From assembly GCA_027618515.1 (NCBI GenBank), contig JAQCEV010000017.1, positions 1 through 38,302 on the forward strand: a stretch of DNA of 38,302 nucleotides, given 5' to 3'. Each line of letters opens with the position of its first letter. The first letter of the stretch is position 1. Source of the stretch: Chloroflexota bacterium (GTDB lineage Bacteria > Chloroflexota > Dehalococcoidia > Lucifugimonadales > Australimonadaceae). This document shows positions 5,036 through 23,117 of the stretch, piece by piece. Made by a program: the position numbers and the translations under genes. The notes beneath the pieces were generated by a model. The model was not told where the DNA came from and made no database searches. It worked only from the letters and a program-made list of their open reading frames with translations.

Positions 5036-6301
5036 CTAGCTCGTAACGGGCTCGGGGAACATGGACGCCCGTGTCTGTTCGCGGAAGTCGGCGGTTGCGG
5101 ACATGACCGTGTCGATAGCGACGACGTTGTAGTAGGTGTCGCCGGTGCCAGCGGGGTCACCGCCGTCTGCTACGACTCTGACGCCCTGTGCGAGTTGCTT
5201 GCGCATGATGATGATGGCTTTGTCCGCAGGGCCGAGGTGCTCGATGGAACGATCGACGATGGGGCCCATGCTTTCCTGCACGGCGTGATCCTGGACGTTG
5301 ACGCCGAAGATGCCGGTGAAGGTGAACTTCTTCTGTGCCTCGCGGTCGATGAGATAGTCGTTGGTGAGGGCCCGAACTTTCTTGAAGTCCGGCGTCTGTT
5401 CGCCGGGGCCAGTGCCGAGGATACGGGCGACGAGTTCCTGATCCTCCATGCCTGTTCCTGAGGGACTGTACTCCCAGTTGTAGACCATGCAGGTGTTGTC
5501 ATCCATCGGCACCCACATGTGACCGGCGACGATGTCGTTGCCCGAGAAGGGCTCCTGGCGTATCTGGGTGAACGGCATGATGAAGTGATATCCGCGCACG
5601 TGGAGCTTGTCTTCATCGAGTTGGCGGATGCCGTAGTAGGCGTAGCCGTAGTCGGTCTCATCGACCTCTAGCTTGGGCGCTTTGCCTCGGACAAAGGGCA
5701 TGGACGGGCTGACGCCCGGCAGGTCAGTGTCGTTGGTGAGTCGACGGTGGAGGATCGGTGCGTGGGAGGTGTCGAGCCCACCTTCCATGGCTTGGAGCCA
5801 GTTGCACTCTTCATAGGTCTTGTTGACGTGGCGTTGGTCCTCAGGGGCCTGAGTCCATGCGAATTCCGGGAGCGGCGGTTGCTTGTCGGCTGGGCCCATG
5901 AACGTCCAGATGAGCCCGCCCATCTCCGCCGTGGGGTAGGCCACGTTCTTGATCTTCTGGCTGAAGTCGGTGTCGTTGGGCTCATTCATCTGGTGAACGC
6001 ATTGGCCCGTGTGGTCGAACTTCCAACCGTGGTAAACGCAGCGAAGGCCGTCCTCTTCGTTGCGCCCGAACCAAAGGGATGCGCCTCGATGCGGACAGGA
6101 CTCAGCCATGAGGCCGACGCGGCCAGATGTGTCACGGAAGGCGATCAGCTTTTCGCCGAGGAGCCGAACGCGCAGAGGAGAGCCATCGGGTTCGACTTCC
6201 CATGACATACCGACGGGCATCCAGTAGCGCCGCATGAGGTTCCCCATGGGGGTACCGGGGCTAACGAGGGTTAGGGCGTCGTTCTCTGTTTGGGTGAGCA
6301 T
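5036..6301 (-). CDS. Rieske [2Fe-2S] ring-hydroxylating oxygenase, alpha subunit
   Basis: Oxygenase component of a phthalate-dioxygenase-type Rieske non-haem iron system, 421 residues. The Rieske cluster ligands are C69-P-H71 and C88-V-Y-H91. The mononuclear iron site shows D177-T-S-H180-A-P-I-L-H185, matching the D-x2-H-x4-H pattern in which the two histidines bind iron and the aspartate bridges to the neighbouring cluster. The ATG has a strong AGGAGG 7 nt upstream. No ferredoxin or reductase partner is adjacent, so electrons must come from elsewhere. It is similar in layout to the oxygenase at 21148-22440 and to the fragment at 19898-20366. The substrate is not predictable. Confidence 0.93.
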   Translation of the reverse strand: MLTQTENDALTLVSPGTPMGNLMRRYWMPVGMSWEVEPDGSPLRVRLLGEKLIAFRDTSGRVGLMAESCPHRGASLWFGRNEEDGLRCVYHGWKFDHTGQCVHQMNEPNDTDFSQKIKNVAYPTAEMGGLIWTFMGPADKQPPLPEFAWTQAPEDQRHVNKTYEECNWLQAMEGGLDTSHAPILHRRLTNDTDLPGVSPSMPFVRGKAPKLEVDETDYGYAYYGIRQLDEDKLHVRGYHFIMPFTQIRQEPFSGNDIVAGHMWVPMDDNTCMVYNWEYSPSGTGMEDQELVARILGTGPGEQTPDFKKVRALTNDYLIDREAQKKFTFTGIFGVNVQDHAVQESMGPIVDRSIEHLGPADKAIIIMRKQLAQGVRVVADGGDPAGTGDTYYNVVAIDTVMSATADFREQTRASMFPEPVTS

Positions 6302-16757: not shown

Positions 16758-17978
16758 GTGCACCAACCGTCGGCTACGACATTGAGCGCTCGCGCCGAGA
16801 TGCGCGCGACGGCGTTGATCTACACGGCCTCGTTCAGCTACATGATCACGCTGGGCTTCACGATGCTGTTGGTGCCGCTGTACGCGCTGCACTTGGGATT
16901 CGACCTGGCTGAGCTGGGTATCATCGTGAGTTCGCAGGCACTGTTCGGCCTATTCTTGAGATTGTTCACTGGCGCGTTCTGCGATCAATTCGGAGAGCGC
17001 TGGGTGCTGTGGGGTAGCTTCAGCACGATGGTGGCGGGCGCGGCGATCTTTGCGTACTCGGGCACGTTCTGGGCGCTGATCCTGGCGCAGACGTTCTTGG
17101 GCATCTCTCGGGCGACCTACTGGACGTCAACGCAGTCCTACAGCAGCAGGATCAACCCCGCGAAGTCAGGAACATTGCTGGGGCGCATGAGCAGCTCTGG
17201 AACGGCTGGCCAGATGGTAGGCGCGTTTCTCGGTGGGGTGATCGCAGAAACCATGGGCTATGGCTGGGCGTGGGCGGCAGTGGTCGGGCTTGGTGTCGTG
17301 GGGTTTGCGGGATCATTGGTGCTGCCCGTTCTCCCGCGCAAGGATGTCCGGCGTGGGTTCAAACAGGCGCTGGCTCCCATCCCCACGCTGGCCCGGACGC
17401 CAAGCATGGGCATGGCGGGGTTCACTGCGTTCGTTGCCTCGACCTCAATGACCATCGCCGTGATCCTGCTGATTCCCTACCTGCGTGAACTTGACAATGG
17501 GGAGGCTACGATAGGAGCAGTCCGAACCGTTGGGTCAGCAGGCAGCGTGGTGATCGGTATCTTCTTCGGCCGGATAATTGGGAGGTTCGGCCAGCAGAAC
17601 CTGTATATGTTCGTGCTGACGTTGCTGGGCCTGACGATGTTGGCCGTTCCGTTGGTAGGTGGAGGGTTGCTTGCGCTGAGCATTGTGATGTTCGCCTACG
17701 GCACGCTGCATGGCGTGCTTGGTCCGCTGTACCCGCTCACCGCATCGACCTACAGCTCGCAGGAGCAGCGCGGGATGGCGATCGCTTACGTTGGGCTGTA
17801 CTGGGCGACCGCGCAGATAGTGGTTCCGGCCGCGTTCGGGCTCATCGCGTTGAACTGGGGTCTGAAGGATTCATTCTGGTTCGCCGGGGTGATGTTCCTG
17901 GGATTCGCGATCGCGATGCCCATCCTGTTCCCGCTACTCACCAAGCGACGCTCCCAGGTCAGTGAGCCGGTGGCTTGA
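16758..17978 (+). CDS. MFS transporter (first of a tandem pair)
   Basis: Major facilitator superfamily permease of about 406 residues with 12 predicted membrane segments. The conserved loop between segments 2 and 3 reads 'GAFCDQFGERWVLW', a variant of the MFS motif A. GTG at 16758 is preferred as start because it has GAGG 8 nt upstream and gives the same N-terminal length as the paralogue; an in-frame ATG at 16800 is an alternative. It is clearly paralogous to the next gene (shared 'LIY-x-ASFS', 'LVPLY-x-LHLG', 'SMGMAG'), with which it overlaps by 4 nt. No substrate can be named. Confidence 0.87.
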   Translation: MHQPSATTLSARAEMRATALIYTASFSYMITLGFTMLLVPLYALHLGFDLAELGIIVSSQALFGLFLRLFTGAFCDQFGERWVLWGSFSTMVAGAAIFAYSGTFWALILAQTFLGISRATYWTSTQSYSSRINPAKSGTLLGRMSSSGTAGQMVGAFLGGVIAETMGYGWAWAAVVGLGVVGFAGSLVLPVLPRKDVRRGFKQALAPIPTLARTPSMGMAGFTAFVASTSMTIAVILLIPYLRELDNGEATIGAVRTVGSAGSVVIGIFFGRIIGRFGQQNLYMFVLTLLGLTMLAVPLVGGGLLALSIVMFAYGTLHGVLGPLYPLTASTYSSQEQRGMAIAYVGLYWATAQIVVPAAFGLIALNWGLKDSFWFAGVMFLGFAIAMPILFPLLTKRRSQVSEPVA

Positions 17979-19174
17979 GCACGGGAACCGCGATACTGCC
18001 CTTGGCCACTGAGAAACGTGCGGCGTCACTGATCTACGCGGCGTCGTTCAGCTTCATGATCTCCCTGGGCTCGATGCAGGTACTGGTGCCTCTATACGGA
18101 CTGCACCTAGGTTACGACATCAAGGCGTTGGGGCTGATCCTGAGCGCGCAGGCCGTGCTGCCTATCTTCACCCGCTTCTTCGGCGGCGCTATCGCCGATC
18201 GGTTCGGTGCTCGATACGTGCTGTGGTTCTCGTTCGGCGCGATGGTCGCCGCAGGCACGGTACTGTCGCTCTCAGGCGTGTTCTGGGCGCTGATCGCCGC
18301 GCAGACGTTGCAGGGGATGTCGCGCTCCACCTACTGGACGGTGACGCAGTCCTACGCGACGCGACTCAACCCGGATCTTGCGGCCACGCGTTTAGGTGGG
18401 CTAAGCAGCTCTGGCAACGCAGGAAGCATCATCGGCACGGCGCTGTCGGGGTTCCTGGCGTTCGGGCCAGGCTACGGTGTCGCCTTCGGGATGGTTGCGG
18501 CATTCGCTTTGGTAGGTCTGCTGGGAAGCGTTGCGCTGCCCAACCTGCCACGCCCCAGCACGAAGCGTGGATTCAGAGCGGCGCTAGAGCCGATCCCGAG
18601 CGTGGCGTCGAGTCGTTCGATGGGGATGGCCGGGATCAGCGCATTCATTGGCTCGACCTCCACGATGCTGGGAATCATCCTGATCATCCCGCTCATGAAG
18701 GACGCGGCGTTCAACGAGTCGGAGATCGGTATCGCGCGCACGATCACCGCCGTGGGGAGCCTGACGGCAGGCTTGCTGTTCGGCAAGCTTATGGGGCGGC
18801 TGGGCCTGATGCGACTGCACTCGGTGGCGTTCGGGCTGCAGGGGCTGACATTCTTGATCGTACCGCTGACGGCCACTCACCTAGCGAGTGGCCTGCCCAT
18901 CATGTACATCTACGGTCTGTTCGCTGGCGTGATGGGCTCGCTCTACCCCATGTCTGCGGCGACGTGCAGTCGCCCGGAGCACCGTGGCACAGCGATGGCG
19001 TACGCAGGCCAGTTCTGGGGGTTAGCGCAACTGGTCATCCCGGCGGCATTCGGCTTCATCGCAGCGGCGGTCGGGTTGGATGCATCCCTGTACATGAGCG
19101 GCGTGATGTTCGTCGGGCTAGCGTTCGTGATCCCTGCGGTGTATCCGTTCATGACGAAAGGCGGGGTCAAGTGA
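17975..19174 (+). CDS. MFS transporter (second of a tandem pair)
   Basis: A 399-residue, 12-segment MFS permease, paralogue of the gene immediately upstream. Its loop 2-3 motif 'GAIADRFGARYVLW' is closer to the canonical G-x-x-x-D-R-x-G-R pattern than that of the first copy. The start is TTG at 17975, overlapping the upstream TGA as TTGA, which explains the poor start codon through coupling. Its own TGA overlaps the GTG of the following lipoprotein. The pair may act as a heterodimer or reflect a simple duplication with diverging specificity. Confidence 0.87.
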   Translation: MSTGTAILPLATEKRAASLIYAASFSFMISLGSMQVLVPLYGLHLGYDIKALGLILSAQAVLPIFTRFFGGAIADRFGARYVLWFSFGAMVAAGTVLSLSGVFWALIAAQTLQGMSRSTYWTVTQSYATRLNPDLAATRLGGLSSSGNAGSIIGTALSGFLAFGPGYGVAFGMVAAFALVGLLGSVALPNLPRPSTKRGFRAALEPIPSVASSRSMGMAGISAFIGSTSTMLGIILIIPLMKDAAFNESEIGIARTITAVGSLTAGLLFGKLMGRLGLMRLHSVAFGLQGLTFLIVPLTATHLASGLPIMYIYGLFAGVMGSLYPMSAATCSRPEHRGTAMAYAGQFWGLAQLVIPAAFGFIAAAVGLDASLYMSGVMFVGLAFVIPAVYPFMTKGGVK

Positions 19175-19897: not shown

Positions 19898-20366
19898 CTA
19901 GCTCGTCTCGCCGCGATGAGCGTAGGCCGTCGAGAGCTCAGCCATGACGTCTGGTGTGCCACGACGGTCGTCGGCGAAGGGCCCACCACGGCGGTCGTCA
20001 CCGGGGAAGAACGAGTCTTCTTGCGGCAGGACGATGCACTGGTTCTCAGCCGGGTCGCGGAACGTGTTGATGGGGTCGCCGCCGTCCTGAACGATATGGA
20101 TCTGCTCGTCCAGCATCTTCCTGGACATGATGACGCCAACGTCGATGGAATTCAGCGTCTCGGTAGAGCGATCCGTGATGGCGCCCTGGGCAATCCATAT
20201 CATGTGGTCCTGGTGTGGGACGAGATCAAGGACGTACTTGCCGTCGGCGTCCCAGATCGGGACGATTTCAGACGGCACGATCTCAGGGTTCTCGATCGTC
20301 TCGCCGGGCGCTGGCAGGTGACACATGTAGCGGACGTGGAGCGTGTGCTCGTCGTCAATGGGCACG
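19898..20366 (-). pseudogene. C-terminal fragment of a Rieske oxygenase alpha subunit
   Basis: About 156 codons encode only the last third of a Rieske oxygenase. The sequence 'VPIDDEHTLHVRYMCHLP' aligns with 'VPMDDNTCMVYNW' near residue 270 of the oxygenase at 5036-6301. It continues with 'DRSTETL' and the 'GGDP' region to a normal stop. The Rieske cluster domain and the iron-binding histidines are missing. Upstream of codon V-P-I-D-D the frame stays open, but it is antisense to an amidohydrolase and shows no Rieske homology. The 5' part of the gene was lost at a sharp junction near 20363-20370. It is not expected to make an active oxygenase. Confidence 0.82.
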
Positions 20367-21011
20367 ATGGATGTGGCGATCGAGGAGTTGCGATGGGCGG
20401 TGCAGCACGGCTGCTGCGGCGTGACGATGCGGCCCGTCGAAGATGCGCGCACGCTGGTGAATCCGTACTTCAACCCTATCTTTGAAGAAGCGCAGAATCT
20501 TAATATCCCCATCGCCGCGCACATCGGGAACTCGAACTTGGGCTTCCGCGATCTGATGGCGACAGACGGCGTTGGTGGTACGTTCGGCACGTTCCGGCTC
20601 ACCTCAGTCGCGGCCTGCCACTCGATCATGTCACGAGAGATGTACAAGGAGTTTCCGACGCTGCGCTGGGGCATCATCGAGGCTTCGTCGCAGTGGATCC
20701 CGTTCGTGATTCACGACTTGCGCCGCCGACTGGAAACACGGGGCCGCAAGCTTCCGGACGAGGCAATGAAGACCAATAACATCTGGGTGACGTGCCAGAC
20801 CGACGACGATATCTCATACGTCGCGGGCTACGCGGGCGACGGTCAGCTGGTGATCGGTACGGATTATGGTCACGAGGATCAGTCCAGCGAGATACAGGCG
20901 ATGCGCAACGTGCGGGATAAGGGCGACGTTGACGCAGGGCTGCTCGATAAGATCATGGGCCAGAACGGCGTTGACCTGTACGGGATTGATATGGCTCAGA
21001 TAGGGCGCTAG
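20367..21011 (+). pseudogene. C-terminal fragment of an ACMSD-type amidohydrolase
   Basis: About 214 codons match the last 200 residues of the amidohydrolase at 30309-31361: 'MDVAIEELRWAVQHGCCGV' aligns with 'MDAVPEQLKFAKENGAVGI' near residue 148 there. Downstream 'AAHIGNSNLGF', 'WIIE'-like 'WGIIEASSQWIPF' and 'GTDYGHEDQSSE' (a metal-binding Asp region) are intact. The N-terminal 147 or so residues, including the first metal-binding motif, are missing. Possible starts at GTG 20343, ATG 20358 or ATG 20367 have no good ribosome binding site. It joins head to head with the Rieske fragment, so both genes lost their 5' ends together. Confidence 0.82.
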
Positions 21012-21076: not shown

Positions 21077-21111
21077 AGAGAAGGGGCCTGGCGGTGCCAG
21101 GCCCCTTCTCT
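21077..21111. terminator. Bidirectional rho-independent terminator
   Basis: A 16-bp perfect stem, AGAGAAGGGGCCTGGC (21077-21092) with its complement at 21096-21111, closes on a GGT triloop. It is followed by TTATTT on the plus strand; an A-rich start serves the minus strand. It lies between the convergent amidohydrolase fragment and the Rieske oxygenase. The stem shares its core with the terminator at 27648-27674. Confidence 0.9.
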
Positions 21112-21147: not shown

Positions 21148-22440
21148 CTACTCTTTCCCGTTCCCTGCAGTGGCGGCGGACATCTCGTGGACGCCATGAC
21201 CAGCGTTCGATCCTGTACCGTTGGCGGTGGCCTTCTTCTTGGCCAGATGCGGGTAGACTTTTCGCCAGTCGCTGCCCTTGGGGTAGTGGGCCGCGAAGGT
21301 GTCGATGTGATCCTGCGGGAGCTCCGGGTCCTTGGACGTGTGGGGCAACGGCAATCCCTTCTGGAAATTCTCGACCGCCTTCAACAGGAATCTACGGACG
21401 GCAATGACGCCTTTATCGCTTACGGCAAGATGCTCTGTAGTGCGATCGTAGACCCGGCCCATGGACTCGGTCGCCATGGCATCGTGGCCCAAGAAGTTCA
21501 TGCCGAGACCTAGGAACGTCTTCGTGCGCTGCTCCTCACGGTCGATCAGGTAGTCGTTGTCCGCGCGGCGGTGCCGGACGAAGCCTGGCCCGATCTGGTC
21601 GCGGCGAGGTATTTCTTCATCAGGCGCCATGGGCTCTGCGGTCATGCCGAAATCCCACCGCCACGAACTACCATCGTCGATGGGCACGTACATGTGCACT
21701 TCACGGGTCCGCGCTGGCACCCAGACCGACAGCGGCATAACGAAGCTGGACACGCGGAAATAGGTCTCCTCTCCAGCGTCTCGGATGGCGACCATGCGGA
21801 CGCCGAAGTCGGTGTCCTCCGTGGTGTACTCCGGGTACTTGTCGAGGTACGTGTCCTCGTAGCCCTTGGCGCCGAAGATGCGGTGAAGGAAGTTGAGGTG
21901 GGCGGAGTCGCACTCGCCCTCGAGCCCCTGCAGCCACGAGCAATCCAGGTAAGACTTGGCTGCGTAGACGCGGTTGAGCGGCATCTTCATGAATTCGTAG
22001 TTGGGCACAGCGGGCATCTCGTCGGCGGGGCCCATGTAGGTCCAGATGATGCCGGCGGCCTCGTGGGTCGGGTACGCGGGGTGCTTGATCTTGTTCCGAA
22101 ATACGCTGTTGGGGGGCTCGGCGGGCGTTTCGAGGATGGTGCCTTCGACATCCATCTTCCAGCCGTGGTATCCGCAGCGCAGGCCACAGTTCTCGTTGCG
22201 GCCGTAAAAGAGAGACGTGCCGCGATGCGAACAGTGCTCGGCCACGAGCCCGATACGGCCGTCAGTGTCACGGAAAGCCACTAGTTCTTCACCTAGGATC
22301 GGCACACGAACCGGAGGGCAATCTGGCTCAGGGATCTCCTCGGACATGAGCGCCGGGATCCAGTAGCGACGCATGACCTCTCCCAACGGTGTTCCCTTGC
22401 GGGTTTCGTTGAGCCATGCATTCTGTCTCTTGGTGAACAT
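21148..22440 (-). CDS. Rieske [2Fe-2S] ring-hydroxylating oxygenase, alpha subunit
   Basis: Intact Rieske non-haem iron oxygenase of 430 residues from the ATG at 22440, which has GAGGGG 6 nt upstream. Cluster ligands are C70-S-H72 and C89-G-Y-H92. The iron site is D178-S-A-H181-L-N-F-L-H186. A low-complexity tail of about 30 residues rich in Lys, Ala, Thr and Gly follows the catalytic domain. It belongs to the phthalate-dioxygenase-like group that works as an alpha-only oligomer with an external reductase; no reductase is adjacent. It diverges from the selenoprotein gene. The N-terminal 'KGTPLGEVMRRYWIPA' is very like that of the oxygenase at 5036-6301. Confidence 0.94.
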   Translation of the reverse strand: MFTKRQNAWLNETRKGTPLGEVMRRYWIPALMSEEIPEPDCPPVRVPILGEELVAFRDTDGRIGLVAEHCSHRGTSLFYGRNENCGLRCGYHGWKMDVEGTILETPAEPPNSVFRNKIKHPAYPTHEAAGIIWTYMGPADEMPAVPNYEFMKMPLNRVYAAKSYLDCSWLQGLEGECDSAHLNFLHRIFGAKGYEDTYLDKYPEYTTEDTDFGVRMVAIRDAGEETYFRVSSFVMPLSVWVPARTREVHMYVPIDDGSSWRWDFGMTAEPMAPDEEIPRRDQIGPGFVRHRRADNDYLIDREEQRTKTFLGLGMNFLGHDAMATESMGRVYDRTTEHLAVSDKGVIAVRRFLLKAVENFQKGLPLPHTSKDPELPQDHIDTFAAHYPKGSDWRKVYPHLAKKKATANGTGSNAGHGVHEMSAATAGNGKE

Positions 22441-22592
22441 CGTCAGCCCCTCTGATAATCGTCGACTTAGCGGCCAATCGCATCTTACGACAGCGATACG
22501 CCATTGTCCCTCTGGCAAGCTGAATCCAAACGACGCCTTGGAGCATCTTAGAGGCTGCGTGCTGTACGCCGCACGAACTAGGAGTAAACCCC

Positions 22593-23117
22593 ATGCCTGA
22601 TTGGCTGATCCAGGGCGACAAGATTCCGCCCATCACGTTGAACCTCATCGATGGTGGCACGCTAACGCTGCCGGACGACACGCCTGACCGCTACGTTGCG
22701 TTGCTTTTCTATCGCGGCAATTGGTGACCGTACTGCAGGCGCCAGTTGGCGTCGTACCAGGAAAAGCTTGAGGAATTGACCACGCTTGGGGCGACGGTCG
22801 TGGCGGTATCCGTTGAGTCGCTGGAGTCCACCCAAGAGATGGTGGAGAAATACGGCCTGACTTTCCCGGTCGCTTACGGCGTAACGGACGATCAGGTTGA
22901 GGGCTTCCACCCGCTGTACAACGAGGATCACCACGGCAGGTACATCCAGCCGATGGAGTTCCTGCTGCTGCGCAACGGGAGCGTTTTCGGGTCTATGTAC
23001 GCGTCCGGGCCGGTGGGTCGGATGGGCGTGGAGGAAGTGCTCAACTCCATCCGCAGCCGCGAGCGCCGCAGGTTGGAGCGCGAGGCGGAAGAGGCTGAGG
23101 CCGCGAAAAAGGGCTAG
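22593..23117 (+). CDS. Peroxiredoxin-like selenoprotein (in-frame TGA read as selenocysteine, U-P-Y-C)
   Basis: One continuous frame of 174 residues from ATG 22593 (AGGAG 8 nt upstream) to TAG 23115-23117, interrupted only by TGA at 22725-22727, codon 45. Both sides belong to one AhpC/TSA-like thioredoxin-fold protein: before it 'YVALLFYRGNW', after it 'PYCRRQLASYQEKL'. In homologues this site reads R-G-x-W-C-P-Y-C, so the TGA replaces the redox-active (peroxidatic) Cys and leaves U45-P-Y-C48. Later hallmarks are 'VVAVSVES', 'GLTFPVAYG' and 'ASGPVGRMGVEEVL'; the tail is a charged helix. A SECIS-like hairpin follows the TGA. It probably reduces peroxides or disulfides with a selenenylsulfide relay. 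Without selenocysteine insertion only a 44-residue stub would be made. Confidence 0.88.
22725..22757 (+). promoter_or_regulatory. Bacterial SECIS-like element with UGA selenocysteine codon
   Basis: TGA at 22725-22727 is followed by a hairpin. GTAC (22730-22733) pairs with GTAC (22754-22757), TGCA (22734-22737) is a one-sided bulge, GGCGCC (22738-22743) pairs with GGCGTC (22748-22753, one G-U), and the apical loop is AGTT (22744-22747). The loop lies 16 nt after the TGA and has G at its second position. Both fit the known requirements for SelB recognition in bacteria. Confidence 0.75.

Follow-up and report, generated by a model that had tools for sequence, protein, structure and literature searches.

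Deletion pseudogenes that arise between neighbouring bacterial genes resemble the locus described here in four respects: the remnants are joined at one point, there is little or no microhomology at the joint, intact relatives exist, and no decay is seen. The present locus differs in that two divergent genes seemingly lost their 5′ ends to a single event, which is a difference of layout and not of mechanism. One of these genes encodes a Rieske oxygenase, and ring-hydroxylating dioxygenase paralogues are reported to have expanded in SAR202 Chloroflexota (PMC6946804). The genome studied here, which may belong to SAR202, likewise carries dozens of Rieske paralogues; that paper treats the expansion, and its main text uses neither “pseudogene” nor “deletion”. 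The other gene belongs to the Amidohydro_2 metal-dependent hydrolases (PF04909), of which the piece found here shares the C-terminal part and lacks the N-terminal D-x-H metal-site segment. No account of this junction was seen in the part of the published literature covered by our search.

The window, a stretch of 38,302 nucleotides, is one contig (C61) of a 3.0-Mb genome assembled in 178 contigs and 93.8% complete. Two of its genes are cut at their 5′ ends at one common breakpoint, at which a C-terminal Rieske piece on the minus strand and a C-terminal amidohydrolase piece on the plus strand stand head to head. Coordinates are given in Table 1. Pfam recognized only the ends of both profiles: the Rieske piece contains part of the LigXa-type C-terminal domain (PF19301, positions 206–259 of 304; E 1.3e-06), and the amidohydrolase piece matched positions 93–289 of 289 of PF04909 (E 3.4e-07). 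These matches, together with the full-length amidohydrolase of a related genome, confirmed the original prediction that both genes had lost their 5′ ends.

Table 1. Features at and around the junction (window coordinates)
Feature	Position	Strand	Basis or remark
MFS transporter 2 (MFS2), left synteny anchor	17975..19174	+	G001 ortholog, 80.5% amino-acid identity over 399 codons
Orphan lipoprotein-like ORF, 231 aa	19171..19866	+	GTG start overlaps MFS2 stop by 4 nt
Rieske (LigXa-type) oxygenase, C-terminal 155 residues, 5′-truncated, native stop	19898..20365	-	Pfam, alignment
Breakpoint between the two fragments	20364..20369	.	0–3 nt microhomology
Amidohydro_2 protein, C-terminal 213 residues, 5′-truncated (146 residues missing relative to G001)	20370..21011	+	Pfam, G001 alignment
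Perfect 16-nt inverted repeat, 3-nt loop, terminator-like	21077..21111	.	Between convergent amidohydrolase and full Rieske 3′ ends
Intact Rieske oxygenase, convergent with the amidohydrolase	21148..22440	-	Pfam, motifs; arrangement also in three genomes of genus g2
AhpC/TSA-like redox gene, probable UGA-encoded selenoprotein	22593–23117	+	In-frame TGA

Homology to Rieske oxygenases ended at the V of VPIDDEHT (20363–20365); the residue preceding this V was R in all 48 aligned related C-terminal halves and I in the window fragment. Amidohydrolase homology set in at T-M-D-V-A-I-E-E, that is, at 20364 or 20367–20370, the D corresponding to residue 147 of the 359-residue amidohydrolase of the related genome G001. 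Where the one homology ends and the other begins places the junction at about 20364–20369, in agreement with the earlier statement that the two meet within a few bases at 20363–20370. Only 0–3 bases are shared at this point, and no evident repeat able to mediate an assembly join was found there. To the left, the MFS1 and MFS2 genes overlap by 4 nt (TTGA), as do MFS2 and the lipoprotein-like ORF (GTGA), and the stop codons of this ORF and the Rieske piece lie tail to tail, 31 nt apart. The G+C content and third-position G+C (0.73–0.81) of this block match the surroundings. Judged from its sequence, the locus is in good order on either side of the junction, and the junction alone looks abnormal.

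G001, the only other genome of the same genus that was compared, is collinear with the window on both sides of the junction. The window's order is kept there (MFS1, MFS2, full amidohydrolase, 2-hydroxyacid dehydrogenase, a second amidohydrolase (AH385), MFS3 and hydrolase), with amino-acid identities of 75–94%. Because the collinear amidohydrolase of G001 is full length, the window copy lacks the first 146 residues. The lost part includes the N-terminal D-x-H metal-binding segment, which is absent from the fragment; the G001 protein has it as D-T-H at residue 7. A search of the assembly with the N-terminal half of the G001 protein did not find the missing 5′ half; the best match was a full-length paralogue (60%). 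Short forms of both genes conserved in relatives had been named as a finding that would speak against the deletion; for the amidohydrolase no short form was seen, the gene being long at 12 of 12 related loci.

Among the sequences searched, the best match to the Rieske piece reached about 49–53%; for want of a close ortholog, a specific search for its missing half was impossible. Judging from paralogues, this half would comprise ∼265–275 codons (about 0.8 kb). When the N-terminal half of a paralogue was used as query, 69 matches were obtained in the same genome, and no orphan half such as was expected stood among them. Weak matches lay on contigs C12 and C83 (E about 5e-4 to 1e-3), and matches with broken frames on C34, C69 and C174. 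The Rieske [2Fe-2S] motif C-x-H...C-x2-H and the mononuclear iron motif H-x4-H are both absent from the fragment and present in both intact Rieske genes of the window that were tested. We take these motifs and the D-x-H segment to be ligands of the respective enzymes, and both catalytic centres are thus predicted to be lost from the remnants. The part that is left is well preserved: of the columns in which at least 90% of 48 relatives agree, the piece covers 23 and departs at only 1, and a 24th such column falls beyond the break.

The amidohydrolase piece contained no stop, gap or frameshift over 213 codons, and its pN/pS relative to G001 was 0.132, compared with 0.042–0.208 for seven neighbours that are intact; synonymous sites were nearly saturated in this comparison. 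Because the piece is undamaged and its pN/pS lies within the range of its neighbours, the break appears to be recent; with the Rieske piece also well preserved, both truncations would be recent. Relative-rate counts for the piece were mixed. With the closest outgroup (G013a), window-specific and G001-specific changes numbered 13 and 10, and six g4 outgroups gave 10:9 to 11:8; four other outgroups gave 15–17 changes on the window branch and 5–6 on the G001 branch (chi2 3.9–6.6). For FADox, MFS1 and MFS2, three nearby genes that are intact, the window branch was equal to or slower than that of G001 in 12 of 12 comparisons. Strong relaxed selection on the piece was rejected on these mixed counts; a mild recent acceleration is possible.

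The ancestral arrangement was sought at 12 related loci, where 3.2–8.2 kb upstream of the amidohydrolase was examined. The divergent pair of full-length Rieske and amidohydrolase genes anticipated in relatives did not turn up at any of the 12 loci. Rieske genes lay downstream of the amidohydrolase on the same strand at six loci and downstream in convergent orientation at three, and at two loci the stretch read contained none. At the remaining locus, that of G001, the stretch has a single Rieske gene, which is encoded on the other strand 7.2 kb upstream and is the ortholog of an intact window gene (5036–6301), not of the fragment. In G001, MFS2 lies 113 bp from the amidohydrolase and the spacer is empty, with neither the lipoprotein gene nor the Rieske piece between transporter and amidohydrolase. 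The three convergent pairs are those of genus g2 (G008, G011 and G002), whose Rieske gene is 67–69% identical to the intact one to the right of the junction and 28 bp to 3.0 kb distant from the amidohydrolase. That g2 keeps this pair indicates that the right side of the window is an old arrangement, partly lost in G001. The collinear place in G001 (L029, 4551–4764) contains neither the intact Rieske gene nor the probable selenoprotein gene (window 21148–23117), a second difference in gene content next to the junction.

Since neither fragment is visibly decayed and the breakpoint is common to both, one recent event that cut both genes is the simplest reading, and we consider a single recent deletion across both 5′ ends, leaving two pseudogene remnants, the probable explanation. 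A full Rieske gene would have stood divergently beside the amidohydrolase just before the event, an ancestor to which the good order of the left side lends indirect backing. The deletion in this lineage would have removed the 5′ part of the Rieske gene, the intergenic region and the first 146 codons (438 bp) of the amidohydrolase, and the remnants would then have been joined with 0–3 nt of microhomology. They are presumably non-functional pseudogenes, tolerated through paralogue redundancy. The two halves of this proposal differ in standing. The amidohydrolase truncation is shown by G001, whereas the loss of the Rieske 5′ half is only inferred: a divergent pair occurs at 0 of 12 loci, and no Rieske gene stands at the corresponding place in G001. 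The single deletion put forward in the original prediction is thus upheld as regards the common breakpoint, the intact G001 amidohydrolase, the absent 5′ half and the lack of decay, and not as regards the ancestral pair. Neither the Rieske piece nor the lipoprotein gene occurs at this place in G001, so the proposal also needs either a previous gain in the lineage of the window or a loss from G001. A loss in G001 is plausible, given that its genome is smaller, that a first look gave fewer Rieske candidates (32, versus 67 in the genome of the window) and that the adjacent full Rieske gene kept in g2 is missing from it.

The empty spacer of G001 also fits a different history, in which an incoming block composed of the lipoprotein gene and an already incomplete Rieske gene displaced, in one step, the 113-bp spacer and the 5′ end of the amidohydrolase. 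The Rieske piece without a close ortholog would suit such a block, as would the lipoprotein gene, for which 250 genomes of the order offered no relative. However, its left edge must then have produced the GTGA start/stop overlap by chance, its G+C and codon-position G+C equal those of the surroundings, and the loss in G001 is plausible as it stands; we regard replacement as unlikely. To the same low degree we credit an assembly artefact, in which a segment was skipped or a gap badly closed and both genes are whole in the living cell. The genome is a draft in 178 contigs, the junction was assessed from the assembly alone, undecayed fragments are what truly intact genes would leave, and a missing piece of 1–2 kb could have dropped out of the bin. 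A random mis-join is nevertheless improbable, because gene order on both sides follows G001; moreover, the missing half of the amidohydrolase is not found in the assembly, and with 0–3 common bases no mediating repeat is evident. The assembly join that had been offered as the alternative to a deletion is disfavoured on the same grounds, namely collinear flanks, no second copy and no evident mediating repeat.

Head-to-head 3′ halves would also result if an inversion broke two co-directional genes, and an amidohydrolase followed by co-directional Rieske genes is what 6 of the 12 relatives have. Such an inversion, or a reciprocal exchange, would have joined the two 5′ halves elsewhere, but searches with the N-terminal half of the G001 amidohydrolase and that of a paralogous Rieske gene gave neither orphan half of the expected kind in this 93.8% complete genome, which speaks against such an event; the flanks are also collinear with G001. 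We rejected this reading as exceedingly improbable. Only slightly less remote is the view that the short forms are functional products under selection. Neither frame is interrupted, third-position G+C is coding-like in both, and the amidohydrolase piece has in-frame starts and a normal pN/pS; yet the catalytic motifs are missing, the related amidohydrolases are long in 12 of 12 cases, and a recent break accounts for the absence of decay. The junction also creates an uninterrupted minus-strand frame of 259 codons (20677–19898), which runs antisense across the amidohydrolase remnant and then through the Rieske piece; the antisense of the matching G001 stretch has stops in all three frames, and the frame is open in the window. 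That this chimera is a new gene that could make a protein is very improbable.

If a single deletion took place, it was ordinary pseudogene formation, an ordinary kind of event, and the junction opens no new mechanistic question. The genome has about 50 matches to the Rieske oxygenase C-terminal domain, and such abundant intact paralogues could make the loss of both genes tolerable. The locus would then illustrate gene turnover in a lineage whose catabolic enzymes form large paralogue families, where a pair of redundant genes can fall silent in one recent event. Neither piece should be annotated as a short enzyme.

Three more Rieske genes of the same genome (G000:C34:174-1351, G000:C69:16130-17190 and G000:C174:7806-9093; L079, L080 and L081) showed homology that changes frame. 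They may be broken genes or may contain sequencing errors; if broken, decayed members may be no rarity in this family.

The lipoprotein-like ORF was not matched by Pfam. Among 250 genomes of the order it had no relative, and 393 genomes of the class yielded a single weak match (E 4.8e-4); it contains VFVGC, which we take to be a lipobox-like motif. The inverted repeat beyond the amidohydrolase stop looks like a two-way terminator. In the AhpC/TSA-like gene, the in-frame TGA coincides with the active-site position in W-[TGA]-P-Y-C, which we read as a selenocysteine U-x-x-C motif. A tRNA-Sec match (71 bits; G000:C59:39440-39533) and SelA (G000:C16:5256-6338) are present in the same genome, and a 52% paralogue (C154:45264-45752) likewise reads through one TGA. 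The gene thus probably encodes selenocysteine. The mechanical ORF listing places its start too late, at 22746.
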